From assembly GCA_013285655.1 (NCBI GenBank), contig JABDHI010000015.1:1-50506 (forward strand): DNA of 50,506 nucleotides. The letters are read 5' to 3'. Source of the stretch: Bacteroidota bacterium (GTDB lineage: Bacteria > Bacteroidota > Bacteroidia > JABEUT01). Under the pieces are notes generated by a model. It ran no database searches. It saw nothing but the letters and a program-made list of their open reading frames with translations, and had not been told where the DNA came from. Positions 6,909 through 41,147 of this stretch are shown one piece after another (within the stretch, counting starts at the first letter, position 1; each line of letters begins with the position of its first letter). The translations under genes and the position numbers were made by a program.

Positions 6909-6915
6909 TGATAAA

Positions 6916-12622: not shown

Positions 12623-12637
12623 AAAAGATAATGATTG

Positions 12638-13777: not shown

Positions 13778-13793
13778 AAGCTTAAAATTTATG

Positions 13794-13801
13794 CGAATGT
13801 A
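13794..13801 (-). promoter_or_regulatory. -7 promoter-like box (TACATTCG on -)
   Basis: One mismatch to TAnnTTTG, 16 nt from the aminotransferase ATG at 13777. It overlaps the alternative longer frame, which supports the shorter start. Confidence 0.35.
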
Positions 13802-13890
13802 GGCATTTTTGCTATTGGCAGCAGTGCTTAGCGCCAATTTTAGAGTGCACCTGAAAAATTAGTAACTTGCATCACTTAAATCCATTTCTT

Positions 13891-14850: not shown

Positions 14851-14852
14851 AT

Positions 14853-15599: not shown

Positions 15600-15603
15600 T
15601 AAT

Positions 15604-18558: not shown

Positions 18559-18667
18559 AATGGTAATGATTTGCTTTCGAAAATAACGTTTTTATTCTAT
18601 TGAATAATGTGCGAATAGTATAAAGATTAAGAAACTATTTTTATTTTTACTCGAAAGAACGAATTGT

Positions 18668-24865: not shown

Positions 24866-25939
24866 ATGGCACAAGCGGATAATAAAGACCTTCAAAACCT
24901 AATTAATAAGGGTGTAAGAGAACGGCTGCCTTTTGTATTCTACAGGTTGCCTGATAAGGAGGAAATCAATTGTATCACTCAATCTTCAAAAGAAAATAAT
25001 AGTGCTGAGAAACTTACCGGTTTCATGTTTTTCCCTTTTATAGCTAATGATTCTGCCCCATCATACTTTATTAAGGCAGATAGCCACCTAACTATGGGAC
25101 TAGATGAACTTGCTACATTAATTCTTAAAATAGAAGATATTTCAGGTGCGCAAACCGGAGTTTATACATCTAAGGCAGAGTTTGTTATACAAGTTGAGAA
25201 GGCGGTTAAAAAGATTAAAACAGGCAAGCTTAATAAGGTTATTCTATCGCGGATACAAAAGGTTGATATTAAAATAGAACCCTTGGATGTGTTTACTGAA
25301 TTGTGCAAAAAATATAAAACCGCATTTGTTTCTCTAGTGGTTATTCCCGATAAAGCAGTTTGGATAACTGCTTCTCCTGAACTATTAGTATCTATGGAAG
25401 GAAGTGATATGAAAACAGTAGCATTGGCAGGAACCAAGCCTGCAAATAATAACGCCCCCTGGAGTCATAAGGAGAAAGAAGAGCAGCAGATTGTAGCTGA
25501 TTATATAGGCAATGTGCTAAATAAATTTTGTACAGAGATAAAAGTGTCAGGACCAGTAGATGTTATTGCGGGGAATATAATGCACCTTAAAACTGAGTTT
25601 GGCGCAAAGCGAAACACAAGCTTAAAAGTATTGGTTGATGAACTTCATCCAACACCCGCAGTATGTGGTATGCCTAAAAAGGAAGCGATTGAATTTATTA
25701 ATACTACGGAGTTACATAAACGGAAATACTATACAGGCTATCTTGGCCCATACAATATTGATGGTAAGGCAGAATTGTTTGTTAATTTAAGGTGTGCAGA
25801 GGTGTTTAATGATTCTGTAAATATATATGTTGGCGGTGGAATTACTTCTGATTCTGTCGCCGAAAAGGAGTGGGATGAAACAGTAATGAAATCGCAAACA
25901 TTGCTTTCAGTAATGTTGCCTAAAGCCAAAATATTATGA
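24866..25939 (+). CDS. menF: Isochorismate synthase
   Basis: A 357-residue chorismate-utilising enzyme converting chorismate to isochorismate, the first committed step to menaquinone. Motifs in the C-terminal chorismate-binding domain are KVILSRIQKVDI, LAGTKPANN ... KEKEEQQIVADYI, LHPTPAVCGMPKKEA and YVGGGITSDSVAEKEW. The length is on the short side but common in Bacteroidota. It heads a six-gene operon and overlaps menD by 4 nt (ATGA). The start at 24866 is preferred over a TTG at 24845 that would lie within the promoter box. Use for siderophore salicylate or DHB is unlikely given the men neighbours. Confidence 0.93.
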   Translation: MAQADNKDLQNLINKGVRERLPFVFYRLPDKEEINCITQSSKENNSAEKLTGFMFFPFIANDSAPSYFIKADSHLTMGLDELATLILKIEDISGAQTGVYTSKAEFVIQVEKAVKKIKTGKLNKVILSRIQKVDIKIEPLDVFTELCKKYKTAFVSLVVIPDKAVWITASPELLVSMEGSDMKTVALAGTKPANNNAPWSHKEKEEQQIVADYIGNVLNKFCTEIKVSGPVDVIAGNIMHLKTEFGAKRNTSLKVLVDELHPTPAVCGMPKKEAIEFINTTELHKRKYYTGYLGPYNIDGKAELFVNLRCAEVFNDSVNIYVGGGITSDSVAEKEWDETVMKSQTLLSVMLPKAKIL

Positions 25940-27621
25940 CAACCAGCAAGCCTATAATTAATGCCATTGCAGAGCTTGCCGCTATTAAAGGAGTTGAGCA
26001 TGCAGTGATTTCTTCAGGCTCACGCAATGCACCTATAGTAATAGCATTCAATGCTCAAAAAAAGATAAAGTGCTTATCGGTAATTGACGAACGAAGTGCA
26101 GGTTTCTTTGCTTTAGGCATAGCGCAGCAAACTGGTAAACCGGTTGCACTAATATGTACATCAGGCTCAGCAGTTTTGAACTATGCCCCTGCAATTGTTG
26201 AGGCCTATTATCAAAAGGTGCCTTTACTTATACTTACAGCTGACAGGCCCATGGAGTGGATCGATCAGGATGATGGACAGACTATAAGGCAGTATAATAT
26301 TTTTTCTTCTTATGTGAAAGCTTCATTTATTATGCCTGCCGATAACTCACATCCTGACGAAATGTGGTATGCTGAAAAAGTTGTTTCGGAAGCATATAAT
26401 TGCGCTGCTAAAAAAGGTGATAAGGGGCCTGTGCATATAAATATACCATTAAGGGAGCCGCTTTATAATGAGGTAGAGAAGTCACGGGTTAAGTTAAAAA
26501 ACATTGAAGTTATAGATGTTAAAAGTAGTTTAAGCCATGCTGCAGAAAATGATTTGCTTAATGAATGGGGTACGGCTAAAAACAAAATGATAATTTGTGG
26601 CTTGCATAAGTCCGATGAAGAGTTAAATAAAGTTTTAAGTAAGCTAGCAGAAGATGAATCAGTTATCGTGATAACTGAATCTACATCGAACTTGTTTGAT
26701 GAAAAGTTTGTCAGTAGTGTTGACGGTTATTTTGAAACACTAACAGAAGTTGAGAAGAAGGAACTGCAACCGGAAATATTGGTTACCATCGGTGGACCTG
26801 TTACGACTAAAAAGTTCAAATCATATTTAAGAAAATACAAGCCTGAACAACAATGGCATGTTTCAACTTCTTCCTCACATATCGATACATATCAGACATT
26901 GACAAAGGTTATTCCAGTGGAGGCGGTAGACTTATTTTCAACTCTGGTGAAAGCAAAACCTGTCAAGTCTGATTATGCAAAAAAAATAAAGGATATTGAA
27001 GCAAAGGCTTTAGCCCAACTTGACGTTTACATTAAACAAGCCCCGTTTTCTGACCTTAAAGCTTTTCAGTCTATACTGAATCGTCTTCCAGCTGATTCAG
27101 ATGTTCAATTAGGGAATAGTACTCCAATACGTTATGCCAACTTATTTGATGTGGCTAAAACTAAGGCTCATTATTATAGTAATAGGGGCGTTAGTGGTAT
27201 TGATGGCTCAGTTAGTACTGCTGTTGGTGCAGCTTACGCTTCGGCTAAGATGACGACCTTAATTACGGGTGACCTTACTTTTTTTTATGATGCAAACGGG
27301 CTGTGGAACAAGCACCTTCCACCAAACCTGCGTATTATAGTTATTAATAATTCAGGTGGTGGAATTTTCAGGGTCATTGACTCGAAAGATACCCCATTGT
27401 TAGAAGAATACTTTGAGGCCACACATAACAGGAGGGCTGAGTCATTGGCTAAAATGTATGACTTGCCATATTATTCAGCCAATAATGAAAAGGACTTGGA
27501 AAAGACACTCGACGGATTTTATAAAGACCATAACGGGAAACCTGTAATTTTGGAAATATTTACACCGAATAAGATCAATGCAGAAGTATTGTTAGGATAT
27601 TTTAAATTTCTTAAAAAATAA
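25936..27621 (+). CDS. menD: SEPHCHC synthase
   Basis: A 561-residue thiamine-diphosphate enzyme adding decarboxylated 2-oxoglutarate to isochorismate. Visible features are an N-terminal pyrimidine-binding domain ([15 protein letters not shown], then [21 protein letters not shown] with its conserved Ser), a [17 protein letters not shown] active-site segment, and the ThDP/Mg motif [13 protein letters not shown] ... [12 protein letters not shown] near residue 450. The length is normal. The start overlaps the menF stop by 4 nt, and menB begins 2 nt after its stop. Confidence 0.95.
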
Positions 27622-27623
27622 TA

Positions 27624-28445
27624 ATGGCAACAAGAAAGTGGACAACCATAAAAAAGTATGAAGAGATACTTTTTACAAAGCATAACGGAATAGCCAAAAT
27701 AAGTATTAATCGCCCTAAGGTGCATAATGCATTTACTCCCCTTACTGTAAAGGAAATGATAAATGCTATGGAATTTTGCCGTGAAAGCACAGATATAGGA
27801 GTGATTATATTAACAGGAGAGGGTGGTAAAGCCTTTTGTTCAGGTGGTGACCAGAGTGTGCGAGGTCATGGTGGGTATGTTGGGAAGGATACCGTACCGA
27901 GACTAAATGTATTGGATCTTCAAAAGCTTATACGATCTATACCGAAGCCTGTAATAGCAATGGTAGCAGGATGGGCAATTGGCGGCGGACATGTATTGCA
28001 TGTGGTGTGTGATTTGACGATTGCTGCAGATAATGCTCGTTTTGGCCAAACTGGTCCTAAAGTAGGTAGTTTCGATGGAGGTTTTGGTGCATCATATCTT
28101 GCTCGTATTGTAGGACAGAAAAAAGCCAGAGAGATATGGTATTTATGTGATCAGTATGATGCAAAAGAAGCCCTTGATATGGGACTGGTTAATAAAGTTG
28201 TTCCATTGAAAAAGCTAGAAGATACAACCGTTGAATGGTGCGGTAAAATATTAGAAAAGAGTCCACTGGCATTGCGTATGTTAAAGTCATCATTTAATGC
28301 TGAGCTTGACGGACAGGCAGGTATCCAAGAATTGGCAGGCAATGCAACACTTCTTTATTATCTTTCTGAAGAAGCAAAAGAAGGTAAGAATGCATTCATT
28401 CAAAAGAGGAAGCCTGATTTCAGCAAATTTCCGAAGTTCCCGTAA
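27624..28445 (+). CDS. menB: 1,4-Dihydroxy-2-naphthoyl-CoA synthase
   Basis: A 273-residue crotonase-fold enzyme closing the naphthoquinone ring of o-succinylbenzoyl-CoA. The oxyanion-hole and substrate loops are present: [17 protein letters not shown] (~residue 72), [36 protein letters not shown] and the catalytic Asp region. It ends [13 protein letters not shown], as in typical MenB. Its stop overlaps the menA ATG. It comes before menC and menE in gene order although it acts after them. Confidence 0.96.
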
Positions 28446-29344
28446 TGAGCAACTTAAAAGCTTGGATGGTTTCATTTCGCTTGCGCACATTGCCATTGGC
28501 ATTGTCATGTACAGGAATGGGAAGCATTCTCGCATTTCAGTACAGAATATTTAGCTGGAAGATATTTATACTTACTTCAGTAACCGCCATTTTTCTTCAA
28601 GTGCTTTCTAACTTGGCTAATGATTATGGTGATACTGTGAAAGGTACTGACAATGCAGATAGGGTTGGCCCACAAAGAGCTTTACAAAGCGGTCATATTT
28701 CCTTAAAGTCAATGCGCATTGCTATTGCAATTTGTGCTTTGCTAGCATTGGTTTCAGGTATTTGGTTGTTGTCAATTGCCACACAAAACTCAACTATGTT
28801 CTTTGTTTTTTTTGTGCTTGGCTTGGCTTGCATTGCTGCAGCTATTAAATATACAATAGGTAAAAAGCCATATGGCTATGCCGGTTTTGGAGATATAGCC
28901 GTATTTCTGTTTTTTGGCTTAATCGGAGTTGCGGGTACATTCTATTTATATGCGCATGCCTTACCTATAATTATCTTGTTGCCAGCATGTGCTTTGGGTT
29001 TCTTAAGCGCAGGAGTGTTAAACGTAAATAATATGCGCGATATTGAAAATGATGCTGCAACTGGTAAAAGAACTATCGTTGTGAGAATGGGTTTGCAAAA
29101 TGCGAAGAAATATCATGACGTATTAATCATATTAGCGCTTCTATTCTTGTTTTTGTATACATCTGCTAACGCGATATCTGTGTTGCAAATGCTTTATTTG
29201 GCAGTAACTCCTTTGTTTATGATTCATCTGGTTTCTGTTATGGGAAAAGAATCAAAGGCAATGGATAGTAATTTAAAGCAACTTGCAATTTTTACATTTA
29301 TAATGGTTATTTGTTTCGCCATTAATACTATAGTTTGTGCTTAA
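28445..29344 (+). CDS. menA: 1,4-Dihydroxy-2-naphthoate polyprenyltransferase
   Basis: A 299-residue UbiA-family membrane protein with about eight transmembrane helices. The first Asp-rich motif is NDYGDTVKGTDNADR (~residue 60) with the flanking VGPQRALQSG; the second is NNMRDIENDAATGKRTI (~residue 195). It attaches the polyprenyl chain to DHNA in the inner membrane to form demethylmenaquinone. It shares one base with the menB stop and overlaps the GTG start of menC by 8 nt. The methyltransferase for the last step is not in the window. Confidence 0.94.
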   Translation: MSNLKAWMVSFRLRTLPLALSCTGMGSILAFQYRIFSWKIFILTSVTAIFLQVLSNLANDYGDTVKGTDNADRVGPQRALQSGHISLKSMRIAIAICALLALVSGIWLLSIATQNSTMFFVFFVLGLACIAAAIKYTIGKKPYGYAGFGDIAVFLFFGLIGVAGTFYLYAHALPIIILLPACALGFLSAGVLNVNNMRDIENDAATGKRTIVVRMGLQNAKKYHDVLIILALLFLFLYTSANAISVLQMLYLAVTPLFMIHLVSVMGKESKAMDSNLKQLAIFTFIMVICFAINTIVCA

Positions 29345-30386
29345 GGCGCGATATAAAAAATATACACTGCAGTTCAAGCGTCCATCAGGTACATCGCGAG
29401 GTGTTTTAACACAAAAAGACACTTACTTTATTATTCTTGGGCAAGATTCTGTCATGGGTATTGGCGAATGCAGCACGCTGAAGGAATTAAGTATGGACGA
29501 TAGACCTGATTATGAAGAGAAGCTCCAAGAAGTTTGCGCCCATATTAATGAATATGTAACTAAACCTTATGAAAAACTAATCGAGTGGCCATCTATTTCT
29601 TTTGGAATAGAGATGGCTATGAAAGATTTGGAGCATGAGGGTGAAATGGAATTATTTCCATCAGGATTTACGCAAGGAAGAGAAGGGATATATATGAATG
29701 GCCTTATATGGATGGGTAGTTTTGAATATATGCAAGAGCAGCTAGAGGCTAAGATAAATGAAGGGTTCAGGTGCATAAAAATAAAAATTGGTGGTATAGA
29801 TTTCGAAAAGGAATTAGAATTGCTCGCACAAATAAGAAAAGTTTATTCAGAAGAAAAAATAGAACTGAGGTTAGATGCTAATGGAGCCTTTAAGTTTGAA
29901 GAGGCATTGGATAAGTTAAATCGGTTATCAAAATATTCTATCCATTCTATCGAACAGCCAATAAAACAAGGATCTTGGGATAAGATGGCTTATTTATGCA
30001 GTAAATCTCCCATACCTATTGCGCTGGATGAAGAACTTATCGGGACATTTTCTAAAAGTGAAAAAGAAAAACTGGTTTCAACCATAATGCCTCAATACCT
30101 TATTTTAAAACCTTCATTATTAGGAGGCTTTGTTGCTTCTGAACATTGGATTGATTTGGCAAATAAATACAAAATAGGCTGGTGGGCAACTTCGGCATTA
30201 GAATCAAATGTTGGATTGAATGCCATTGCGCAATGGGCATATACGTTTGATAATGAAATGCCCCAGGGATTAGGTACAGGACAATTGTATACTAATAATA
30301 TCGAGTCACCTTTGATTGTGAAGAATTCGAGATTATGGTGTAAAAATGGCCAATGGGATTTAAATGAGATCATAAAAAATCAATGA
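29337..30386 (+). CDS. menC: o-Succinylbenzoate synthase
   Basis: A 349-residue enolase-superfamily enzyme dehydrating SHCHC to o-succinylbenzoate. Active-site pieces in order are the catalytic lysine pair in IKIKIGG (~residue 145), metal ligands Asp in LRLDANGAF, Glu in SIEQP and Asp/Glu in ALDEELIG, and the second base Lys in LILKPSLLGG. The start is a GTG (29337) inside the end of menA; the protein opening LKARYKKYTLQFKRPSGTSR fits the family, and no nearby ATG does. Confidence 0.93.
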   Translation: MLKARYKKYTLQFKRPSGTSRGVLTQKDTYFIILGQDSVMGIGECSTLKELSMDDRPDYEEKLQEVCAHINEYVTKPYEKLIEWPSISFGIEMAMKDLEHEGEMELFPSGFTQGREGIYMNGLIWMGSFEYMQEQLEAKINEGFRCIKIKIGGIDFEKELELLAQIRKVYSEEKIELRLDANGAFKFEEALDKLNRLSKYSIHSIEQPIKQGSWDKMAYLCSKSPIPIALDEELIGTFSKSEKEKLVSTIMPQYLILKPSLLGGFVASEHWIDLANKYKIGWWATSALESNVGLNAIAQWAYTFDNEMPQGLGTGQLYTNNIESPLIVKNSRLWCKNGQWDLNEIIKNQ

Positions 30387-30387
30387 T

Positions 30388-31485
30388 ATGTCATTTGACG
30401 GGCTTAAGTTTAATGGTAATGTTTATTCTAACTATGAGTTGGTGCACTTGGCTAATGGACTTTTGCAGCAAAAAAAAATAACAAACCACGATAAAGCCTT
30501 ATTGCAGTTTATTAAAGAATGTGTTGTCCCAGTAAAAACTATTCAAGTGAAAACATCTGGTTCTACTGGTGAACCTAAGCTGATAGAAATTGAAAAGAGC
30601 CAAATGTTGGAGAGTGCAAAAATGACATGTCGCTATTTCCACATTAGTAGACGCACCAATATGCTGTTGTGTTTGTCAGCAGAATACATTGCCGGTAAAA
30701 TGATGGTCGTACGTGCTTTTTTTAGTGGTGCTAATCTCGTGGTAGTTGACCCAACTAACAACCCATTAATAGATATTAAGCAAAAGATAGATTTTGTAGC
30801 CATGGTTCCTTTACAAGTTGAAAGTGCATTATCGAATCCTAAAACACGGAAAATATTCAACTCTATAGAAAATGTAATAATAGGCGGAGCAAGTGTATCT
30901 ATTAAACTACAAAAGAAACTCGCTAAATGCACTAACAATGTCTATTCAACCTTTGCCATGACGGAGACCTTAAGTCATTTTGCCCTAAAGAAGTTAAGTG
31001 GAAAGAATAAAAGTAATCTGTTCGAAGTGTTGCCGGGAATAAAAATTACAACAGATGACCGTGGATGCATGATAGTAAATGCACCATTATTAAATACTTC
31101 ACCAATTATTACAAATGATATTATTGAGTGTATTGACGAAACTCATTTCAAATGGCTTGGCCGGTATGATAATGTAATAAATAGTGGTGGAGTAAAAATA
31201 ATACCTGAAAAACTTGAAGAGAAGATAGTGCGGATAATTAAGGAGAATAGATTCTTTATTTCTTCGTTGCCTGATAAAAGACTGGGGCAGAAAGTTGTTA
31301 TTGTAATAGAGGGCGTTACCAGAATGGAAGCTAAAGAACTTGAAAAACATATTGAAAAACTGGTAGATAAATATGAAAAGCCGCGTAAATATTTATTGAT
31401 TGAAAAATTTGTGGAAACCCCCACAGGAAAGGTAAAAAGAGGAGAAACCCTGGCAATTGCAATGGGTGGTAAGAAGGCGAAATAG
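30388..31485 (+). CDS. menE: o-Succinylbenzoate-CoA ligase (short form)
   Basis: A 365-residue ANL-family adenylating enzyme, shorter than the ~450-residue proteobacterial and Firmicute forms but usual for Bacteroidota. It has the phosphate loop VKTSGSTGEPKLIEI (~residue 53), STFAMTETLSHFALK, the hinge GRYDNVINSGGVKIIPEKLEE, and the C-terminal lysine in ETPTGKVKRGE. It activates o-succinylbenzoate to its CoA thioester. It is the last men gene. Twenty bases separate its stop from the -7 box of the trp leader, with no terminator between. Confidence 0.92.
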   Translation: MSFDGLKFNGNVYSNYELVHLANGLLQQKKITNHDKALLQFIKECVVPVKTIQVKTSGSTGEPKLIEIEKSQMLESAKMTCRYFHISRRTNMLLCLSAEYIAGKMMVVRAFFSGANLVVVDPTNNPLIDIKQKIDFVAMVPLQVESALSNPKTRKIFNSIENVIIGGASVSIKLQKKLAKCTNNVYSTFAMTETLSHFALKKLSGKNKSNLFEVLPGIKITTDDRGCMIVNAPLLNTSPIITNDIIECIDETHFKWLGRYDNVINSGGVKIIPEKLEEKIVRIIKENRFFISSLPDKRLGQKVVIVIEGVTRMEAKELEKHIEKLVDKYEKPRKYLLIEKFVETPTGKVKRGETLAIAMGGKKAK

Positions 31486-31505: not shown

Positions 31506-31513
31506 TATATTTG
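31506..31513 (+). promoter_or_regulatory. Bacteroidota -7 box (TATATTTG) for the aro-trp operon
   Basis: A perfect TAnnTTTG match whose last base is 5 nt before the ATG of the Trp-rich leader peptide. The transcription start is therefore predicted at or within a few bases of that ATG. No obvious -33 TTTG was found. Confidence 0.7.
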
Positions 31514-31517
31514 CGAT

Positions 31518-31598
31518 ATGAAAACAAAAGCGGTAATATATTTTTCTGGCGTTTCTGTAAAAAGAAATGCGACCGTTTCTAATTGGTGGTGGAGCTAG
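31518..31598 (+). CDS. trpL: Tryptophan leader peptide (three Trp codons in a row)
   Basis: A 26-codon reading frame starting MKTKAVIYFSG and ending SNWWWS then TAG. The TGG triplets occupy 31584-31592, followed by one Ser codon and the stop. Three consecutive Trp codons are very improbable by chance, and the peptide sits between an operon promoter and a 14-gene aro-trp operon, as leader peptides of attenuation systems do. Region 1 of the downstream RNA structure begins at the last Trp codon, so a stalled ribosome would mask it. No Shine-Dalgarno space exists between promoter and ATG, so translation may be leaderless. Confidence 0.85.
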   Translation: MKTKAVIYFSGVSVKRNATVSNWWWS

Positions 31599-31668
31599 TT
31601 TAATAAGCTCTTACTGCACTATTTCTATTAATTTATTTAAAGTTCAGCAGCGAGAGTCACAACTCCCG
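31591..31668 (+). promoter_or_regulatory. trp attenuator: mutually exclusive hairpins
   Basis: Four segments can pair in alternative ways. 1:2 is GGAGCT (31591-31596) with AGCTCT (31606-31611). 2:3 is CTCTTACTGC (31608-31617) with GCAGCGAGAG (31647-31656), nine pairs including one wobble, with one mismatch. 3:4 is CGAGAGT (31651-31657) with ACTCCCG (31662-31668) around a CACA loop, one mismatch. A ribosome stalled on the Trp codons would block 1 and favour 2:3; efficient translation would favour 1:2 and 3:4. A U-run right after 3:4 is missing (ATTGAGGATTATTATTG follows), so the terminator itself is weak by eye. Confidence 0.72.
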
Positions 31669-31702
31669 ATTGAGGATTATTATTGCTAATTTTATATCGA
31701 AT

Positions 31703-32665
31703 ATGGAACAGAAAATGAAAAATACAGAAGTCACATTGATAGCAGGCCCCTGCTCAATCAGTGAAAAGAATATAGGTGAAGTATACACCCTTTCGGAAAT
31801 GGAAGTGAAGAACAGCTTGGGTGAAACGCAACGCGCTGTTACTGGTGTGCGTATTGTTGGGGTTAAGAGTCGTACTTCATATACTGAGAAAGAAGGTGCT
31901 ATGGGTATTGATAGGGAGGTATTTGTAAATAACATGCGTAGTTATGCTCAAGGTGGTGGTATAAGAGATATGAAGATGTTGCCTAGCATCCAAATGACTG
32001 ATGAGTTTATTCGTAAAACAGGTATGATTGTTGCCACTGAAATTGTAGCTCCATTGATTCAGGTTCCTTTATGTGATAAAGTATTAAAGGACCACGAACT
32101 GCTTTTGTGGACACCGGCTGTATTGCAGATAGGCTGGAACTTGATGGAAATGTATGAGTGTAGTAAAAGTAATGCATGGAAATTGGGTATAAAGAACCCC
32201 AAATGGGTAGGTAAAGAAAGCGATGGGTTAAATAGCATGGAGAAAACCTGGTTAGGTATTGGTACTTATGTACCACAAATACACGACATACTTTATATAC
32301 ACAGAGGGGTAGATGTTGCGGAGAGCGGCCCCTATCGTAACCTTCCTGTGCATGAATCGGCTAAGAAGGTTAAGAAATTAAGCGGTAAACAAATGTATTT
32401 TGACCCATCTCATACGCTTGGCCCTAAGATGAAAGATAAGATTGTTGAAGGTACACTGGAAGCCATGAGAATGAAGTTAAGCGATGATGAATATTTGTAT
32501 GATGGTATATTGATAGAGGCCGGTACTTCGCAAACAGATACTGAACAACACATTACACATGCTGAATTACAAGATTTAATAAATAAGCTTGCCAAGTTCC
32601 GTGATATTGTCCCACCGAAAGAACATAAAAAGGTACTAAGTAGCAGTGCTAGCGGAAGTAAATAA
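31703..32665 (+). CDS. Atypical DAHP synthase (DAHPS/KDO8PS fold), head of the aro-trp operon
   Basis: A protein of ~320 residues related to the type I DAHP/KDO-8-phosphate synthase fold. It has LIAGPCSISEK at the start, MKMLPSIQMTDEF, LLLWTPAVLQIGWNL, ILYIHRGVDVAESGPYRNLPVHE and the metal/phosphate motif MYFDPSHTLGPKMKD with the late Glu in ILIEAGTSQTDTEQH. No chorismate mutase domain is fused, unlike the common Bacteroidota DAHPS-CM proteins, and several loops differ from typical DAHPS. Context (first gene, followed by aroB) strongly implies condensation of PEP with erythrose-4-phosphate. The start is 31703 or 31715; a TTG at 31670 would overlap the attenuator. Confidence 0.8.
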   Translation: MEQKMKNTEVTLIAGPCSISEKNIGEVYTLSEMEVKNSLGETQRAVTGVRIVGVKSRTSYTEKEGAMGIDREVFVNNMRSYAQGGGIRDMKMLPSIQMTDEFIRKTGMIVATEIVAPLIQVPLCDKVLKDHELLLWTPAVLQIGWNLMEMYECSKSNAWKLGIKNPKWVGKESDGLNSMEKTWLGIGTYVPQIHDILYIHRGVDVAESGPYRNLPVHESAKKVKKLSGKQMYFDPSHTLGPKMKDKIVEGTLEAMRMKLSDDEYLYDGILIEAGTSQTDTEQHITHAELQDLINKLAKFRDIVPPKEHKKVLSSSASGSK

Positions 32666-32671
32666 AATAGA

Positions 32672-33760
32672 ATGTCAATAAAGGAACAAATACGGTTAAC
32701 TGTTAATGCTGATAAAGTATCGGTGCCTATTTATGTGGGTAACGATATTTATGCTGATGTGAAAACTATAGCATCTATAAATGATTACAGCAAGGTTGGC
32801 GTGTTAATGGATAAAAATGTGGCATATCATTGGGGCGAGTCTATTAGAAAGGTGCTAAGGAAGAATGCCATATATATCATTGTCCCCGCCGGTGAAGAAA
32901 ATAAAACACTTGCAGCGGCTGGAAATGTTTTAGCAACTTTGCTGAAGCATGGCTTCGACCGGAAGTCTTTACTAATAAATTTTGGTGGTGGAATGATTTG
33001 CGATTTGGGCGGATTTGCTGCAAGTACCTATATGCGGGGTATAGCATTTGTAAATATGCCTACCACATTGCTTGCTCAAACTGATGCAGCCATTGGTGGA
33101 AAAACAGGAGTTGATTTTAATGGGTTTAAGAATATGGTGGGAAGTTTTGCTCACCCTAAAGCCATAATATGTGATTCGTTGCTGCTTTCTACTTTGCCCG
33201 AAAGGGAATTCAGGTCAGGCTTTGCCGAGGTTATTAAGCATGCTTTAGTAGCGGATAAGAAACTTTTTCATACGCTGGCAGAAGAGAGTTTTGGAGCAAT
33301 GGACGAAGATAAACTTGCCGAAATATTGTTACAATCGTGTGGTATAAAATGTAATGTGGTTTCTAAAGATGCAAATGAAAAGGGCCTAAGAAAGATATTG
33401 AACTTTGGACATACAATTGGGCACGCTATTGAAATGCTAAGTCATGATACCAGGAATCCGCTCTTGCATGGTGAAGCGATATCGATAGGGATGATTGCAG
33501 AGGCAAGGCTTTCATTGCTTTCAGGTTTGATAAGTAAAGAAGATTTCAAGAAAATAGAAGATATCATTGAGAAAGCTGAGCTTCCTTCAAGAATAAGCAA
33601 ATCTTATAAGAATAAGATATATGCAAAAATGATGGGAGACAAGAAGAACGAAAGGAATATAATTAAATGGGTTTTGTTGAAAGGAATTGGTAAAGCAGTA
33701 ATTGATGAAGAGCAACCAGGGAAGCTTATAAATAAAGCAATAGAGTATATATTAATATAA
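32672..33760 (+). CDS. aroB: 3-Dehydroquinate synthase
   Basis: A 362-residue NAD- and metal-dependent enzyme cyclising DAHP to 3-dehydroquinate. Characteristic stretches are GGGMICDLGGFAASTYMRGI (NAD loop, ~residue 105), FVNMPTTLLAQTDAAIGGKTGVD, EFRSGFAEVIKHAL and the metal-binding HTIGHAIEM with a second His in LHGEAISIGM. The length matches the family. It begins 6 nt after the DAHPS-like gene and 2 nt before aroA, the second of the 14 genes. Confidence 0.96.
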   Translation: MSIKEQIRLTVNADKVSVPIYVGNDIYADVKTIASINDYSKVGVLMDKNVAYHWGESIRKVLRKNAIYIIVPAGEENKTLAAAGNVLATLLKHGFDRKSLLINFGGGMICDLGGFAASTYMRGIAFVNMPTTLLAQTDAAIGGKTGVDFNGFKNMVGSFAHPKAIICDSLLLSTLPEREFRSGFAEVIKHALVADKKLFHTLAEESFGAMDEDKLAEILLQSCGIKCNVVSKDANEKGLRKILNFGHTIGHAIEMLSHDTRNPLLHGEAISIGMIAEARLSLLSGLISKEDFKKIEDIIEKAELPSRISKSYKNKIYAKMMGDKKNERNIIKWVLLKGIGKAVIDEEQPGKLINKAIEYILI

Positions 33761-33762
33761 TA

Positions 33763-35058
33763 ATGGAAAAAATCAGCAACATTGCATCTATATATCCTCT
33801 TGATAAACCAGTTCAGGCTTCCGTAAAGGTGCCTGGATCTAAAAGCTATACCAATAGGACTTTGGTGGTTGCTGCACTTGCAAATGGAATCACTATTATT
33901 AGTGGAGCTTCTGATGCTAATGATACTCGGATATTAATAAAATTACTCGATAGACTAGGTGTTGAGATAGTAGAAAGAGATGGTGTTATAGAAGTGAGAG
34001 GCAATGGCGGAAAGTTTGAGGAATTTAATGGCGTACTAAATGTTGAAGATGCTGGCACTGTTATGCGGTTTCTTACTGCATTGTGTTGCTTGGTTCCTGG
34101 CGAAATTACGTTAGGTGGGTCAGATCGTATGAATCAAAGGCCAATCAAAGAATTGGTAAGCGGATTAAAAAAACTTGGTGCAGAAATTACCTATACTGAG
34201 AATGATGGGTTCCCACCTGTAAAAATAAATGGCGGCTCTATAAACGGCGGACCTGTTCATATAAATGGCAGTGTATCTAGCCAATTTATTTCGGCTTTGT
34301 TAATGATAGCCCCTTTGTTAACTAGAGATACTGAAGTACATATTACTGGAGAGCAGGTTTCAGAACCTTATATTAATATGACTCTGGCCGTAATGAAGCA
34401 ATTTGGAATTGAAGCTGATAAGTCAGAAATGTATTATTCGATAAATGCCAATCAACAATACCAATCGTGTAAGTTTCAAGTGGAGGGTGATGCCTCTTCG
34501 GCATCTTACTTATTTGCTATTGCTGCTTTATCTCAAAGTAAAATTGAGGTTGCAAACCTATCTGGTAAAAGTTTGCAGAGTGATATAAGGTTTGCCGATA
34601 TACTTGAAAAAATGGGGTGCAAGGTAGATAGGTCTTTTTGTTCCATCGCCGTGACCGGCTGTAAAGAATTGAAAGCAATAAAAATAAATATGCAAGATAT
34701 GCCTGATACAGCGCAGACACTTGCTGTGTTAGCAGCATTTGCTAGGGGAGAAACAGTTATTACGGGCTTAAGGACATTGCAGCACAAAGAAAGTAAAAGA
34801 CTTACTGTTTTGGAAAAAGAACTCTCAAAAATGGGCGTGAAATGTGAAGCTGGTAACGACTACATTAAAATATCAGGTGGTAATCCTAAGGGTGCTGTAA
34901 TAGAAACATATTATGACCATCGCATGGCTATGGCATTTGCTGTTGCAGGGGTTAAAATACCTGGTATGATTATCGAATCACCTCAAGTGGTTAAAAAATC
35001 ATTTCCTTCTTTCTGGGAAACATTAAAATCAATTGGAATAAATGTTGAGATAGGATGA
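33763..35058 (+). CDS. aroA: EPSP synthase (3-phosphoshikimate 1-carboxyvinyltransferase)
   Basis: A 431-residue enzyme transferring enolpyruvate from PEP to shikimate-3-phosphate. Visible are KVPGSKSYTNRTLVVAALA at the N-terminus, the VEDAGTVMRFLTALC segment (~residue 95; class I enzymes usually read NAGTAMR), RPIKELVSGLKKLGA, SSQFISALLMIAPL, HKESKRLTVLEKEL and YYDHRMAMAFAVAG. It overlaps aroK by 4 nt. It comes before aroK and aroD, so gene order does not follow the order of reactions. Confidence 0.95.
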   Translation: MEKISNIASIYPLDKPVQASVKVPGSKSYTNRTLVVAALANGITIISGASDANDTRILIKLLDRLGVEIVERDGVIEVRGNGGKFEEFNGVLNVEDAGTVMRFLTALCCLVPGEITLGGSDRMNQRPIKELVSGLKKLGAEITYTENDGFPPVKINGGSINGGPVHINGSVSSQFISALLMIAPLLTRDTEVHITGEQVSEPYINMTLAVMKQFGIEADKSEMYYSINANQQYQSCKFQVEGDASSASYLFAIAALSQSKIEVANLSGKSLQSDIRFADILEKMGCKVDRSFCSIAVTGCKELKAIKINMQDMPDTAQTLAVLAAFARGETVITGLRTLQHKESKRLTVLEKELSKMGVKCEAGNDYIKISGGNPKGAVIETYYDHRMAMAFAVAGVKIPGMIIESPQVVKKSFPSFWETLKSIGINVEIG

Positions 35059-35567
35059 GAAACATTGCATTGATAGGTTTTATGGGGGCTGGTAAAAGCA
35101 CGGTTGCAGAGCTTTTGGCAGAAAAGCTTGGCGCGACTTTAGTAGAGACTGATATGGAAGTATTGCGCTTGTCTGGTTTTCCGAGTGTTAATTCTATATT
35201 CGATACTGAGGGTGAAGAGTATTTTAGGGCGGTGGAACAAGAAGCAATTAGAGAGGCTGTAAGAAAAGGGAATTGTGTAATATCATGTGGCGGTGGCGTA
35301 ATAAACTCGGTAGATAATATAAAGGTGCTTAAAGGCAATGCGTACATTGTTTTTCTACATGCCAGCTTTGACGCAATCAAAAAGAGATTGAAAGGTACCG
35401 ATACAAGGCCACTTTTCAGGCAAGAGGAAAAGGCTACGCTTCTATATGCATACAGATTACCATTATATGAGAAAAGTGCTGATGTAGTGATAAATACGGA
35501 TAGTAAGAAACCTGAGGAAGTAGTAAAGCTAATATTAGAGAAATTTAGACCAACAAATGCTAATTGA
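35055..35567 (+). CDS. aroK: Shikimate kinase
   Basis: A 170-residue P-loop kinase phosphorylating shikimate. Walker A is IGFMGAGKSTVAELLA (~residue 6). The shikimate-binding Asp is in LVETDMEVLRLSG, the Gly-rich VISCGGGVI lies near residue 78, and the lid Arg is in TRPLFRQEEK. The length is standard. The ATGA overlaps the aroA stop, and the gene overlaps the start of aroE by 11 nt. The long minus-strand frame lying across it is a shadow. Confidence 0.95.
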   Translation: MRNIALIGFMGAGKSTVAELLAEKLGATLVETDMEVLRLSGFPSVNSIFDTEGEEYFRAVEQEAIREAVRKGNCVISCGGGVINSVDNIKVLKGNAYIVFLHASFDAIKKRLKGTDTRPLFRQEEKATLLYAYRLPLYEKSADVVINTDSKKPEEVVKLILEKFRPTNAN

Positions 35568-36396
35568 CACAAATACAAAAGTTTGTTTGGTAATTGGCGA
35601 TCCTGTTGCTCATTCCCTATCACCTGCTATGCATAATGCTGCATATGAGGCTTTAGGATTAGGCTCTCAATATGTTTTTCTTCCTTCACGAGTAACAGCT
35701 TCTGAACTCGCACTTAAAATGTCGGAAGTAAAGGAATCTGCTAATATTCATGCGCTTGCAGTTACGGTGCCTCATAAGGAAACTATTATAAAATATTTGA
35801 ATAAGCTCGATGAAACAGCACGCCTGATTGGTGCAGTTAATACAGTTGTTAAAGAAGAAGGCAAGCTTGTGGGATACAATACAGATTATTATGGTGCAAT
35901 TGAAAGTTTGAAAGCTCATACTGGGTTGAATGGTAAAAAAGTTGCCGTACTGGGCGCAGGAGGCTCAGCCCGTGCAATAGTATATGGCTTGGCAAAAGAA
36001 AAATGCGACGTTATTATTTATAGTAGAAACATCGAGAAGGGAAAAGAAATTACAGATGAGTTTGGTGGCCAATCAATAGACTGGGAGAAGCGAAATAATA
36101 GTATAGATTGTGATATTATAATCAACGCCACAAATATTGGTAGAGAAGGAAAGGAATTGCCATTAGAAGAAGAAGTGATAGTATCAAAGCAAATAATATT
36201 TGATATTAACTATAACATTAATGGTACGGCCTTGCTAAATGCGTCAAAGCGTAAAGGTGCCGCTGTGGTTGATGGGTTGGAAATGTTGCTAAGGCAAGGA
36301 ATGAAGCAGTTTGAAATATATACCGGACTTAAGGCCCCAGAGGAAGCGATGAGGAATGCACTCAATAAAAAAGTGAATCATGCAAATGCCATATAA
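35557..36396 (+). CDS. aroE: Shikimate dehydrogenase
   Basis: A 279-residue NADP-dependent reductase from 3-dehydroshikimate to shikimate. The substrate site is VCLVIGDPVAHSLSPAMHNAAYEALG with the catalytic Lys-Asp pair in VTVPHKETIIKYL and VGYNTDYYGA. The NADP-binding loop is VAVLGAGGSARAIVYGLAKEK (~residue 129), followed by the basic YSRNIEKGKE that selects NADP. Its start lies inside aroK and its end overlaps aroD by 17 nt, an unusually deep overlap that suggests coupled translation. Confidence 0.95.
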   Translation: MLIDTNTKVCLVIGDPVAHSLSPAMHNAAYEALGLGSQYVFLPSRVTASELALKMSEVKESANIHALAVTVPHKETIIKYLNKLDETARLIGAVNTVVKEEGKLVGYNTDYYGAIESLKAHTGLNGKKVAVLGAGGSARAIVYGLAKEKCDVIIYSRNIEKGKEITDEFGGQSIDWEKRNNSIDCDIIINATNIGREGKELPLEEEVIVSKQIIFDINYNINGTALLNASKRKGAAVVDGLEMLLRQGMKQFEIYTGLKAPEEAMRNALNKKVNHANAI

Positions 36397-37063
36397 CATA
36401 TATACTGTTGTTCAAGGTAGTACTTTGCCTGCATTTCTAAAAAACATGAAGAAGGTTGGGTTACGCTCCGATAGGGTTGAGCTTCGCGCTGATTCAATAC
36501 GGAGCTTTAGAGTTGACGATGTCGAAATACTTAAAAACAACAGCCCTTCCCATTCCATATTCACATATAGGCATATAAAGGAAGGTGGACTATTTAAAGG
36601 CGATGTTAAAGAACAGAAAAATATTCTAAAAGAAGCATTTGTTTTTGAATTTGACTATATAGATGTTTCATTAGGTAATTCTATCTTAAATGAACTAACC
36701 CAAAAGGAGCGCAAGAAACTTTTGGTGTCTTACCACGAATATAAAGTAACCCCTACAATTGAAAGATTAATGGGAGTAATGAATAAAATGCGGAAAGAAT
36801 CCCCGGCAGTGATTAAAATTGCTACTATGGTTAATAGTCCGAAAGACGTTTTTGTGTTGGCCGATTTGCTTAAAGAAAAGAAAAAGAACGAAAAATTAAT
36901 TGTTATAGGGATGGGTGAAATGGGTAAGTTAACTCGTATTATGTTTCCTACCATGGGCAGTTACTTAACTTACGCTTCTATGGAAGGTGAAAAGATTGCT
37001 CCTGGGCTTATGAACCAGAAAGAGATGGAATCAGTATATAATATCATTACTAAATCAAAGTAG
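36380..37063 (+). CDS. aroD: Type I 3-dehydroquinate dehydratase
   Basis: A 227-residue class I (Schiff-base) enzyme converting 3-dehydroquinate to 3-dehydroshikimate. Substrate contacts are VELRADSIRSF; the catalytic His is in LLVSYHEYKVTPT (~residue 117), the Schiff-base Lys in VIKIATMVNSPKD (~residue 145), and the C-terminal FPTMGSYLTYASM holds the substrate Ser/Gln region. ATG 36380 gives MQMPYN; an ATG two codons later is equally possible. It overlaps aroE by 17 nt. Type I is common in Bacteroidota but contrasts with the type II aroQ of many bacteria. Confidence 0.93.
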   Translation: MQMPYNIYTVVQGSTLPAFLKNMKKVGLRSDRVELRADSIRSFRVDDVEILKNNSPSHSIFTYRHIKEGGLFKGDVKEQKNILKEAFVFEFDYIDVSLGNSILNELTQKERKKLLVSYHEYKVTPTIERLMGVMNKMRKESPAVIKIATMVNSPKDVFVLADLLKEKKKNEKLIVIGMGEMGKLTRIMFPTMGSYLTYASMEGEKIAPGLMNQKEMESVYNIITKSK

Positions 37064-37064
37064 T

Positions 37065-38150
37065 ATGCCAGGGAATTCATTTGGACAGCTTTTCCGTATT
37101 ACAACCTTCGGAGAATCTCATGGAGCTGCTGTTGGTGTTGTGGTTGACGGCTGCCCTCCGGGTTTAAAGTTGTCAGAAAAAGATATCCAACCTGAGCTTG
37201 ATCGTCGTAAACCAGGCCAAAGTAAAATAACTACTCCTAGGAAGGAAGAAGATACAATCCATATTCTTTCGGGAGTATTTGAAGGTAAAACTACCGGCAC
37301 TCCTATTTTGTTGATTGCGTATAACAAAGATGCCAAGCCTTCCGACTATGAAGCAATGAAAGATATTTACCGCCCATCTCATGGTGATTATACTTACGAT
37401 ATTAAGTACGGCATTCGTGATTGGAGGGGTAGTGGTAGGGCATCAGCCAGAGAGACCTTAGCAAGAGTTGCCGCAGGAGCAATTGCTAAAAAATATTTGT
37501 TTGAAAAATTTGGAACCGAATGCCTTAGTTATGTTGAACAGGTTGGCGGTATCAAATCAAATATCACCATTGATAAAGTCACAAAAGCATCTATTGATAA
37601 AAGTATGGTAAGGTGCCCTGATAAGGCGGTTGCGGATAAAATGGTTAAATTGATAGAAAAGGTTAAGAGTGAAAATGATTCGATAGGTGGGGTTATCAAA
37701 GGCTTTGTTAAGAATCCTCCCCCTGGCCTTGGTGAGCCAGTTTTTGATAAGCTTCCGGCCGATCTTGGGAAGGCAATGCTTAGTATAAACGCAGTTAAGG
37801 GTTTTGAATTCGGTTCAGGCTTTGAAGGTGTTACCATGAGAGGAAGTGAACATAATGATGGTTTTGTAGTAGGCAAGGATAGTAAAATAGAAATCTCCAC
37901 TAATAATGCAGGAGGTACATTAGCTGGCATTACAACGGGTGAAGATATTTATTATCGTGTGGCATTTAAACCGGTAGCTACTATATCAAAACCACAAAAA
38001 ACAGTAACACGTTTGGCGAAGCATGCTACTTTATCAGCTGCAGGTAGACACGACCCTTGTGTGTTACCAAGAGCTGTATCAATTGTAGATGCTATGGCAG
38101 CTATTGTGTTAATGGATCATTATTTACGTCATAAGGCACAGAATCTATAG
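37065..38150 (+). CDS. aroC: Chorismate synthase
   Basis: A 361-residue FMN-dependent enzyme forming chorismate. It has FRITTFGESHGAAVGVVVDGCPPG with the catalytic His, RRKPGQSKITTPRKEED, DWRGSGRASARETLARVAAGA with the conserved Arg residues, and RHDPCVLPRAVSIVDAMAA near the end. The length is normal. It begins 1 nt after aroD and 2 nt before trpE, so it is exactly the join between the shikimate and tryptophan parts of the operon. Confidence 0.97.
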   Translation: MPGNSFGQLFRITTFGESHGAAVGVVVDGCPPGLKLSEKDIQPELDRRKPGQSKITTPRKEEDTIHILSGVFEGKTTGTPILLIAYNKDAKPSDYEAMKDIYRPSHGDYTYDIKYGIRDWRGSGRASARETLARVAAGAIAKKYLFEKFGTECLSYVEQVGGIKSNITIDKVTKASIDKSMVRCPDKAVADKMVKLIEKVKSENDSIGGVIKGFVKNPPPGLGEPVFDKLPADLGKAMLSINAVKGFEFGSGFEGVTMRGSEHNDGFVVGKDSKIEISTNNAGGTLAGITTGEDIYYRVAFKPVATISKPQKTVTRLAKHATLSAAGRHDPCVLPRAVSIVDAMAAIVLMDHYLRHKAQNL

Positions 38151-38152
38151 GA

Positions 38153-39520
38153 ATGCAGAAGGTACAGTTGGACATATCCCATATACAAAGCCCTAAATAC
38201 AAAGAATTAGGCCGTATGGACTTTTTTGCTCTATTCAAAAAGGTAGAGAAAACATTTGATACTTGTTTTCTGTTAGAGTCATTAGGTGAGAATGCAAAGG
38301 ATGCCCGTTATTCGTTAATTGGTTTTAATCCAGCCTCAGTAATCAGTGCGACTGAGGATGAACTTATAGTAAATGGTAAGGCTTATTATTCAAATAATGC
38401 TTATAATGCTTTAAAACATTTCATTCCGGAACATTATGTTCCTTCTCAAATTTTCTCTGGTGGTTTGGTTGGATATATTAGTTATGATGCTGTTTCATTA
38501 TTTGAGCCGGCCTTATCTGTTAAGCAACACCAACAGTTTCCGTTATTCCTTTTTGGATTATATGAAGATGGTTTGATATATGATAAAACTACTGGCATTA
38601 CATCCTATTTTTATCATAAGGAAGATAGATCGGATGTTGTAAATAAAGTAATAAGCTCTAAAGGAGATGTAAAGCAAACTTCTTTGAAGATTAATGCAAA
38701 AGGTGATAGCATGTCAAAGCTCCGTCACCATGAAGCGGTGAACGAGATTATAGAAGAAATAAAAAAAGGCAATACGTTCCAGTGTCAGGTGGGTATTAAG
38801 CGTCTATTTGAAATTGAAGGTGATACTGTTTTGTTATATGATGAGTTAAGGAAGATTAACCCCTCACCACATATGTATTACCTGAAATTTAAGGAGAGGA
38901 CTATTATAGGTGCCAGCCCTGAGCTTTTACTAAACCTCCACGATGGTATAATGGAAACATACCCACTGGCAGGCACGATTAAACGAGGTAGTTCTGGTAA
39001 TGATGATATGGAACTTGCCCAGACTATGTTAACCGATCCAAAAGAATTAGCAGAACACAGGATGTTAGTTGATCTTCATCGGAATGATCTAGGTAAGGTA
39101 TCTCGTATAGGAACAGTTAAAATATCTGCCTTAATGGAAGTGAAGCGCTATAGCCACGTTCAGCATATATCAAGCGAGGTGGTGGGCGTTATTTCGCCTG
39201 ACGAGGATGCTTTCACTGCTTTAGCGGCAGTTTTTCCTGCGGGTACTTTATCAGGTACCCCAAAGATAGAATCAATGAAAATTATTGAAAGACTAGAAAA
39301 TAACCCGCGTGGTCCTTATGGCGGTGCAATTGGCTATTATGGTTTTAATGGCGATTGTAAAATGGCTATACCTATCCGTTCATTATTTATAAGTGATGGT
39401 CAAGGTTATGCACAGGCTTCAGGTGGAGTGGTATGGGACTCAACTCCTGAGGGAGAGTATCAGGAAATACAGAATAAACTTGCCGGTATGCAAAAGGCAA
39501 TAGACCCTTTTATAGTTTAA
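38153..39520 (+). CDS. trpE: Anthranilate synthase component I
   Basis: A 455-residue chorismate-binding subunit making anthranilate with ammonia supplied by TrpG. The N-terminal TCFLLESLGENAKDARYSLIG contains the LLES motif that in characterised TrpE forms the Trp feedback site, so allosteric inhibition is probably retained. The C-terminal half shows FQCQVGIKRLFEI, IGASPELLL, YPLAGTIKRGS, HRMLVDLHRNDLGKVS and PAGTLSGTPKIESM. It has no fused TrpG. It is the first trp gene of the operon, 2 nt after aroC and 2 nt before trpG. Confidence 0.96.
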   Translation: MQKVQLDISHIQSPKYKELGRMDFFALFKKVEKTFDTCFLLESLGENAKDARYSLIGFNPASVISATEDELIVNGKAYYSNNAYNALKHFIPEHYVPSQIFSGGLVGYISYDAVSLFEPALSVKQHQQFPLFLFGLYEDGLIYDKTTGITSYFYHKEDRSDVVNKVISSKGDVKQTSLKINAKGDSMSKLRHHEAVNEIIEEIKKGNTFQCQVGIKRLFEIEGDTVLLYDELRKINPSPHMYYLKFKERTIIGASPELLLNLHDGIMETYPLAGTIKRGSSGNDDMELAQTMLTDPKELAEHRMLVDLHRNDLGKVSRIGTVKISALMEVKRYSHVQHISSEVVGVISPDEDAFTALAAVFPAGTLSGTPKIESMKIIERLENNPRGPYGGAIGYYGFNGDCKMAIPIRSLFISDGQGYAQASGGVVWDSTPEGEYQEIQNKLAGMQKAIDPFIV

Positions 39521-39522
39521 GC

Positions 39523-40134
39523 ATGAGAGTAATAATAATAGATAACTACGATTCGTTTACTTATAATCTTTATCAAATGGTGGGTGATATATTAGCTCAA
39601 CAAGACGTAGGTAATGTACTCGATGTTATTCGTAATGATAAAATAACACTGGAGGAAATAGTAAAGCAGTACGATAAAGTTATTCTATCTCCAGGCCCTG
39701 GTAACCCAGCTGATAAGGCTTATTTCGGAGTCTGTGCTGATGTTTTGATGAATCCTCAGAAAAAAATATCCGTATTAGGCGTTTGTTTGGGCATGCAAGG
39801 TATTGCACATTATTTTGGCGGTAAAGTTATTCCATCAAATAAGCCAATGCATGGCAAAACAAGTCCTATTAAACATGATGCCAAAGGAGTATTTGCTAAT
39901 ATTCCACAATCAATTAATATTATGCGCTATCACTCCCTGATGGTAGATAGAAATACATTGCCTGCAAACCTTGAAGTAACTGCTGTAACCGATGATTCAG
40001 TAGAAGAGATAATGGGTCTGCGTCATAAAGATTACCCGATAGAAGGTATTCAATTCCACCCCGAGTCATTTGCAACTCAGGAAGGTAATGCCATGTTAAA
40101 GAATTTTCTTTTTCCTGTAATAAATCACAAGTGA
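39523..40134 (+). CDS. trpG: Anthranilate synthase component II (glutamine amidotransferase)
   Basis: A 203-residue class I glutamine amidotransferase feeding ammonia to TrpE. The catalytic Cys is in VLGVCLGMQGIAHYFGG (~residue 87), and the His-Glu pair is in GIQFHPESFATQEG (~residue 176). It has IIDNYDSFTYNLYQMVG at the start and PGPGNPAD for the oxyanion region. The length is that of a stand-alone TrpG, not fused to TrpD. The stop overlaps the GTG start of trpD. Confidence 0.95.
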   Translation: MRVIIIDNYDSFTYNLYQMVGDILAQQDVGNVLDVIRNDKITLEEIVKQYDKVILSPGPGNPADKAYFGVCADVLMNPQKKISVLGVCLGMQGIAHYFGGKVIPSNKPMHGKTSPIKHDAKGVFANIPQSINIMRYHSLMVDRNTLPANLEVTAVTDDSVEEIMGLRHKDYPIEGIQFHPESFATQEGNAMLKNFLFPVINHK

Positions 40135-41147
40135 GTAAAGGCGTAACATACAGCAATTTAATAAGAGAGAAGAAATATCTTTCTCAGGATGAAGCATATG
40201 CTATGCAAAAAGGTATTCTGGTAGGAGATATTAATGCGCAAGGTCTTTTGGATGTCTTCTCCGCTCTTGATGGGCGACATCTTTCAGTCGAAGAGATGAA
40301 TGGGATTAATGCCGCTACCAGAGAATCTATGTTGCCTGTACCAATTAAAACGGATGCACTTGATATAGTTGGTACTGGTGGAGACGGAATGCGAACCTTC
40401 AATATCTCTACCGTGGCTTCTATTGTTTGTGCAGCTTGCGATGTGCCGGTAGTTAAGCATGGTAGTCGTTCGGCTAGTAGCCGTTGTGGCAGTGCAGATG
40501 TGCTTGAGGCGTTAGGTGTGAATATTATGCTAGATCCTGTTCAAGCAGTAAACTGTTTTGAAGAGATTGGAATGGTATTTTTATTTGCGCAAAAGTTTCA
40601 CCCTGCACTTAAAAATGCAGCTGAGGCACGTAAGCAATATGGTAAGCGCACTTATTTTAATATTCTTGGTCCATTAGTTAACCCAGCCCAGGTTAGTCAT
40701 CAGACTCTTGGGGTTTTTGATGAGGGTATTAAAAAACTAATGGGTGAAGCTTCAGTTAACGCAGGCATTAAGCGCTTATGGGCTGTTAGAAGCAATGATG
40801 GGATGGATGAGATAAGTCTTTTTTCAGCCCCATCTGTAACAGAGTTTTCGATTCAATTTCCCAGGGGTAATAATGTAGGAATTTCTTTCCCTTTATATAA
40901 AACAGGAATAGAAGAGATACAAATAAACGAAGTGGACGAAAGCGCTAGGATTATTCTAGATATTGTTAATGATAGGGCTACCGAAGTGCAAAAGCAAACT
41001 GTTGCAGTAAATGCTGCTGTTGGCTTAATGACTTATGGAGTGACTAATGATTTGGATAAGGCAAGAAGTATGGCAATCGAGGCTATTGAGTCTGGTAAGG
41101 TATTGAAGAAGTTGAATCAATTAATTCAAGTTTCTAATCATGTATAG
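40131..41147 (+). CDS. trpD: Anthranilate phosphoribosyltransferase
   Basis: A 338-residue enzyme coupling anthranilate with PRPP. PRPP-binding GTGGDGMRTFNISTVASIV (~residue 82) and KHGSRSASSRCGSADVLEALG are intact, and FAQKFHPALKNAAEARKQYGKRTYFNILGPLVNPA follows the family pattern. The start is a GTG overlapping the trpG stop; it gives MSKGVTYSN, and no suitable ATG lies nearby. It overlaps trpC by 8 nt. Confidence 0.95.
   Translation: MSKGVTYSNLIREKKYLSQDEAYAMQKGILVGDINAQGLLDVFSALDGRHLSVEEMNGINAATRESMLPVPIKTDALDIVGTGGDGMRTFNISTVASIVCAACDVPVVKHGSRSASSRCGSADVLEALGVNIMLDPVQAVNCFEEIGMVFLFAQKFHPALKNAAEARKQYGKRTYFNILGPLVNPAQVSHQTLGVFDEGIKKLMGEASVNAGIKRLWAVRSNDGMDEISLFSAPSVTEFSIQFPRGNNVGISFPLYKTGIEEIQINEVDESARIILDIVNDRATEVQKQTVAVNAAVGLMTYGVTNDLDKARSMAIEAIESGKVLKKLNQLIQVSNHV

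Follow-up and report, generated by a model that had tools for sequence, protein, structure and literature searches.

A candidate trp-type attenuator preceding a shikimate-tryptophan operon in a Bacteroidota bacterium

The trp leader of enterobacteria (trpL) combines a short open reading frame (ORF) bearing tandem Trp codons with a region 1 that overlaps them and with three RNA pairings, 1:2, 2:3 and 3:4, that exclude one another. In the aro-trp supraoperon of Bacillus subtilis, TRAP, a Trp-binding protein, acts before trpE and not before the aro genes. For Bacteroidota, Table 1 of PMC2864571 gives Bacteroid-trp (Rfam RF01692; Bacteroidete tryptophan peptide leader RNA) as a Bacteroidetes motif, with ‘y’ under both RNA and cis-regulatory. 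Single passages elsewhere see ‘strong clues’ that leader peptides attenuate amino-acid operons of F. psychrophilum (PMC9723704), mention leader-peptide-like ORFs in B. thetaiotaomicron (PMC7366714), and count leader genes, with Bacteroidetes among the groups covered (PMC4833913). The authors of PMC2965389 stated in a passage from 2010 that they knew of none beyond Proteobacteria and Actinobacteria, atypical cases excepted. Our text searches returned no paper on a trp attenuator in the phylum or before shikimate genes, a weak result since they also missed PMC2864571 and covered few subscription journals. The text of PMC1262725 lacks the terms DAHP, aroF, aroG, aroH, shikimate and trpE.

Here we describe a leader in a stretch of 50,506 nucleotides from a Bacteroidota bacterium (assembly GCA_013285655.1, contig JABDHI010000015.1), hereafter called the window. 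Like Bacteroid-trp, it is a Trp-codon leader RNA of Bacteroidota. Unlike members of that family, the leaders of the window and of three relatives match neither RF01692 nor Trp_leader (RF00513), even at E≤1, precede a DAHP-synthase-like gene and aro genes, and carry a weak terminator. The window leader resembles enterobacterial trpL in its ORF, in the overlap of region 1 and in its exclusive pairings; the enterobacterial architecture proposed in an initial annotation of this DNA is thus shared in layout, though RF00513 is unmatched. It differs from trpL in that its start codon would lie at +1, without a Shine-Dalgarno leader, and in having three Trp codons just 5′ of the stop, a weak terminator and shikimate targets. 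As in the B. subtilis supraoperon, shikimate and trp genes stand together and would be subject to Trp-responsive attenuation. A ribosome-mediated attenuator of the trp type, placed before a shikimate-tryptophan operon, is in our judgement very probably the best explanation for this region. The shikimate-first position, the weak terminator and a predicted transcript start 0–9 nt from the leader AUG are new.

Leader ORF and alternative pairings

The leader region, 31506–31702, is flanked by a menE-like gene that ends at 31485 and by a 14-gene block at 31703–44574; all features given below are on the forward strand. The promoter box TATATTTG (31506–31513) fits the Bacteroidota sigma-A −7 box, TAnnTTTG, and is separated by 4 nt from the ATG at 31518 that opens the leader ORF (31518–31598; MKTKAVIYFSGVSVKRNATVSNWWWS, then stop). 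The ORF encodes 26 residues and ends WWWS-stop. Its three tandem Trp codons, the putative control codons, occupy 31584–31592 and are directly followed by a Ser codon and TAG. Both the box and the 26-codon frame with its three Trp codons had been proposed in the initial annotation, and both are present. As in attenuators, a short leader ORF holds tandem codons for the amino acid that would be regulated. Within 0.85 Mb (the window plus stretches of G000, G004 and G002), no other short ORF linked to such a box contains a run of Trp codons. A sigma-70 promoter scan was set aside, Bacteroidota promoters being outside its coverage. A 40-codon ORF in another frame (31567–31689) stops early, by eye, in relatives G004 and G002, and we therefore attribute its presence to the Trp-codon core that it overlaps. 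Directly 5′ of the putative attenuator lies a menaquinone block (25936–31485; menD, menB, menA, menC and menE by appearance); a mere 20 nt separates the stop codon of menE from the promoter box.

The three pairings claimed for this region could be drawn at 31506–31702 and exclude one another in silico, and each exceeds shuffled sequences in all four species compared (those of the window, G004, G002 and G006). Region 1 (GUGGUGGAGCU, 31586–31596) overlaps the Trp codons, and region 2 (AGCUCUUACUGC, 31606–31617) can serve as the partner of either region 1 or region 3; the overlap with the control codons and the exclusive choice between 1:2 and 2:3 are found in silico in 4/4. Region 1 has an invariant core, GAGCU, that starts at 31592, the final base of the third Trp codon, which is where the region had been said to begin. 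A G-U-rich extension carries region 1 back to 31586, so that pairing with region 2 involves the Trp codons as well. Pairing 1:2 is composed of an invariant GAGCU/AGCUC helix and a G-U-rich helix joining the Trp codons with UNCUGC, the latter with one broken pair in G004. Pairing 2:3 joins 31608–31617 with region 3 (GCAGCGAGAG, 31647–31656) through nine pairs and one mismatch, and it forms in 4/4.

Region 2 is identical at 11 of 12 positions across the four species, while two positions of region 3 vary between A and G opposite U with pairing kept; no 2:3 pair has changed on both sides among these four clade members. Pairs were tallied from anchored positions because MAFFT misplaced the window’s region 3 by one or two bases. 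Values of p for the window, G004, G002 and G006 (1000 shuffles each) are 0.003, 0.002, 0.028 and 0 for 2:3, and 0.038, 0.048, 0.012 and 0.014 for 1:2. A single-sequence fold of the whole window leader is not significant (z of −1.0 and −0.2); what exceeds chance is the WWWS-stop core common to four species and the shuffle results for the individual pairings.

The 3:4 hairpin (31644–31676) is a weak terminator-like stem of −7.4 kcal/mol, followed by a U-rich tail, UUAUUAUU (31677–31684), in which 6/8 bases are U. The initial annotation had noted the lack of a U-run after 3:4; this holds for an uninterrupted run, but the terminator is weak and not absent. When the terminator-position hairpin is defined as the best hairpin with ≥5 U among the eight bases that follow it, its stability is −7.4, −8.5, −6.9 and −8.4 kcal/mol in the window, G004, G002 and G006, with p of 0.013, 0.02, 0.033 and 0, respectively (150 shuffles each). 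As a candidate intrinsic terminator, 3:4 is above shuffles in 4/4, yet its stem is weak and its tail U-rich but interrupted. A simple terminator scan did not report this hairpin, whose stem is interrupted; in positions 1–20000 of the window the scan gave 18 sites versus 15.8 expected.

In the predicted mechanism, transcription would begin at or next to 31518, and a ribosome would load onto the leader AUG at the 5′ end of the RNA. Under a shortage of charged tRNA-Trp, this ribosome would stall on 31584–31592 and mask region 1, such that 2:3 forms and the polymerase continues into the shikimate-tryptophan operon. With ample Trp, the ribosome would reach the stop codon, which precedes region 2 by 7 nt in 4/4, and cover region 2; 3:4 would then fold, and part of transcription would end near 31677–31690. 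Start site, stalling, termination and Trp response are here predictions from sequence. The switch is probably leaky, since the 3:4 hairpin is weak. Such a leak would keep some chorismate available for Phe, Tyr, folate and menaquinone at high Trp.

In G000, G004 and G002, the excess of terminator-like sites over one shuffle is 8.7, 4.5 and 6.5 per 100 kb, respectively; in G116, G045 and G049, three genomes from elsewhere in the class, it is 22, 14 and 24. Strong terminators may therefore be scarcer in this lineage, and the weak hairpin may in part be a consequence. The low excess (4.5–8.7 versus 14–24), the weak hairpin and the interrupted U-tract would also suit a leader ORF that senses Trp but acts through Rho-dependent termination or a long-range structure instead of the 3:4 terminator. 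We consider this unlikely, given that all four leaders have, where a terminator would be expected, a hairpin followed by a U-rich tail, above shuffles, and that 2:3 would be purposeless unless region 3 had another partner.

The shikimate-tryptophan operon

The genes at 31703–44574 overlap or lie a few bases apart at most. The first of them (31703–32665), which begins 104 nt past the leader stop, is DAHP-synthase-like and divergent, scoring 19.9 bits with NF006421 and 16.4 bits with PF00793, both below cut-off. It is followed by aroB (32672–33760; TIGR01357, 361.7 bits), aroA (33763–35058; TIGR01356, 436.2 bits), aroK for shikimate kinase (35055–35567; NF010553, 129.3 bits, below cut-off), aroE (35557–36396; TIGR00507, 232.1 bits), aroD for type I dehydroquinase (36380–37063; TIGR01093, 128.6 bits, slightly below cut-off), aroC (37065–38150; NF003793, 472.1 bits), trpE (38153–39520; TIGR01820, 436.4 bits, below cut-off) and trpG (39523–40134; TIGR00566, 187 bits). 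The NCBIfam profile scan covered these first nine genes; trpD, trpC, trpF, trpB and trpA (40131–44574) were named from translations, and trpB served as a search query. The targets of the putative attenuator thus include, in the same tight block, genes for the amino acid of its own control codons. The initial proposal of a trp-type attenuator heading a shikimate-first operon is supported by this tight block together with the conserved Trp codons and pairings.

The first gene has an above-cut-off match in neither NCBIfam nor Pfam, and a phmmer search of the PDB gave no match. For its AlphaFold model, based on an eight-sequence alignment (mean pLDDT 70), the structural matches are KDO8P and DAHP synthases, with a best E of 1.9e-8 and a TM of about 0.5. 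The model fold and the position ahead of aroB suggest a divergent DAHP synthase, with the fold alone being compatible with a KDO8P synthase too. This very divergent DAHP-synthase-like protein, seen in the window and in relatives L013, L015, L008, L016 and L017, is 46–48% identical to a protein from a Dojkabacteria metagenome-assembled genome (MAG), and 47% identity over part of the length was seen with an Elusimicrobium MAG protein. Open frames of 375–378 aa with PF00793 matches in G002 and G001 may represent further DAHP synthases.

The genome containing the window is about 69% complete (68.7%), and its only chorismate synthase match is the aroC inside the operon. One chorismate synthase per genome is found in 8/11 genomes of the order, sharing a contig with the first gene in six. 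With one such enzyme found per genome, a complete Trp-dependent shut-off would affect everything made from chorismate. Since an attenuator-like leader heads the 14-gene operon, its sequence suggests that tryptophan supply probably tunes the entire shikimate and tryptophan pathway.

Trp leaders in relatives and across the class

The order sample comprises 11 genomes of one genus, eight of which have a relative of the first gene; the genomes with no match (G003, G005 and G007) are incomplete. In G004, G002 and G006 the first gene is 86–87% identical to that of the window, and the leader ORFs likewise end WWWS-stop. The leader peptides of this set are MKLKTGKYIVKVAASGSDAVSNWWWS, MKTTANNIVNMAPVKGFTGVAAFSFWWWS and MITKTGSYYTSNKAASGGTVLNWWWS, each followed by a stop. 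All three relatives keep TGGTGGTGGAGCTA and its reading frame, and both 1:2 and 2:3 can still form, while the remaining peptide drifts. The distance from the first Trp codon to the ATG of the first gene is 114–119 nt in the window and these relatives. Among the matches listed, exact ones first, the core TGGTGGTGGAGCTAR occurs exactly, once each, in 4/11 genomes of the order, and every exact match is upstream of a DAHP-synthase-like gene. Only exact matches were counted, as a search allowing two mismatches gave many chance matches and its backward control was similar. A menE-like gene lies 5′ of the leader in the window and in G004, and, by reading, another gene does so in G002 and G006; because this neighbor varies, leader and operon seem to move together. 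Aligning the relatives’ leaders, a check suggested at the outset, bore out conservation of the Trp codons and of 1:2 and 2:3 in the four sequences and revealed no two-sided covariation.

Relatives with 59–66% identity in the first gene lack the leader. The near-complete genomes G009 and G010 (L008 and L007) have an aro operon with no leader, an absence that fits because trpB is unmatched and trpE-like matches are weak. Both organisms are possibly tryptophan auxotrophs. Genes for tryptophan synthesis are present in G008 (99% complete), where no Trp leader was found near the first gene and the single W-rich short ORF within 1500 nt is 1.2 kb away, and in G001, where there is no Trp leader in the 150 nt upstream of the first gene. 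These two trp-bearing genomes without a leader count against the attenuator reading. They also lend some weight to decay from an ancestral trpE leader that has lost its terminator and retains minimal regulation, as does the weakness of the terminator at the window when terminators elsewhere in the class are strong. Nonetheless, we regard decay as improbable: four species retain the Trp codons, their frame and both 1:2 and 2:3 while the flanks have diverged, which argues for present selection on the leader.

A search with the TrpE of the window gave matches, pabB-like ones included, in 191/197 genomes of the class. We took the best 64 trpE-like places (E down to 6.7e-54), presuming weaker ones to be mostly pabB-like, and kept 57 after removing four from the window’s own order and three with <250 nt upstream. 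A short ORF with WW lies ≤250 nt upstream in 38/57, compared with 0 in the reverse complement and a mean of 0.8 in 20 shuffles; for WWW the count is 26/57, against 0 and 0.0, respectively. Among ten other residues, NN alone is clearly high (29 versus 11.0) and KK slightly so (24 versus 19.4, maximum 23). When either WW or W-x-W is allowed, 47/57 trpE places have a leader ORF. A hairpin with a T-rich tail accompanies 45 of these 47 leaders, with 44 being strong (hairpins counted without a shuffle control). The strong hairpins start 55–92 nt after the first Trp codon. Across the class, the median hairpin energy is −18.7 kcal/mol, compared with −6.9 to −8.5 kcal/mol for the window and its three relatives, and the median tail has 7 T of 8. 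Pairings reach p≤0.05 in 21/45 for 2:3 and in only 10/45 for 1:2. Outside the class, with one place per family, an uncontrolled count gave a W-W or W-x-W short ORF in 8/20 places of the phylum.

Like the leader in the window, the class trpE leaders have a TAnnTTTG box near the leader AUG, a W-run and a downstream hairpin. They stand before trpE, whereas that of the window precedes a DAHP-synthase-like gene and aro genes, and from first Trp to stop they span 6–17 codons as opposed to four. It is very unlikely that the leader ORF controls translation of the first gene rather than termination of transcription, for although that gene, 104 nt past the leader stop, is within reach of a structure, regions 3 and 4 show no pairing with the AUG region when the sequence is read by eye, and class members have clear terminators.

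At gathering scores, Bacteroid-trp matches four of all 47 class leaders (L058, L084, L098 and L101), and this model therefore looks too narrow. At E≤1, a scan of 27 of the 47 added four weak Bacteroid-trp matches, and six leaders among these 27 matched RF00513 below its gathering score (E≤0.061). A U6 match in the window (E 0.013) was discarded, being far below the gathering score. The window leader is thus a kind of device known in the phylum, yet outside the Bacteroid-trp model. Its occurrence in this phylum is no surprise, because RF01692 has been described and leaders precede 47/57 trpE genes.

A predicted near-leaderless transcript start

In a passage of PMC9723704, TAnnTTTG is placed at −12 to −5. 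If the box in the window is taken in this way, transcription would start at 31518, on the leader AUG itself. The spacing from box to ATG, by eye, is 12 in the window, G004 and G006 and 20 in G002. A strict box is located ≤45 nt upstream in 36/47 class leaders, and with leader starts picked by rule and transcript starts predicted from boxes, 29/36 have a box start 12–21 nt before the AUG and hence an implied 5′ UTR of 0–9 nt. For comparison, among ordinary first genes that have a strict box ≤150 nt upstream, taken from six genomes, 32/186 have such a UTR, or 32/106 in the nearest like-for-like comparison, which considers only implied UTRs of 0–30 nt. Passages in two studies give 5.5% for leaderless mRNAs (PMC9723704) and 3.7% for 5′ UTRs <10 nt (PMC7366714).

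Taken jointly, these observations can be read, tentatively, as a Bacteroidota trp attenuator that is near-leaderless and that in the window’s order is placed before the whole shikimate pathway with a terminator tuned to leak. In the near-leaderless form, the leader AUG would lie at the point where RNA polymerase starts or just past it, and ribosomes would load at the transcript end. Tuning of the terminator might be expected because full shut-off would starve the cell of Phe, Tyr, folate and menaquinone.

The class leaders suggest that Bacteroidota have trp leaders in much greater number and variety than the single Rfam model captures. A near-leaderless start, if correct, would raise the question of how transcription and translation stay in step when ribosomes have to load on the first bases of the RNA. 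If the attenuator operates as proposed, the entire route to chorismate in this lineage would respond to tryptophan supply.
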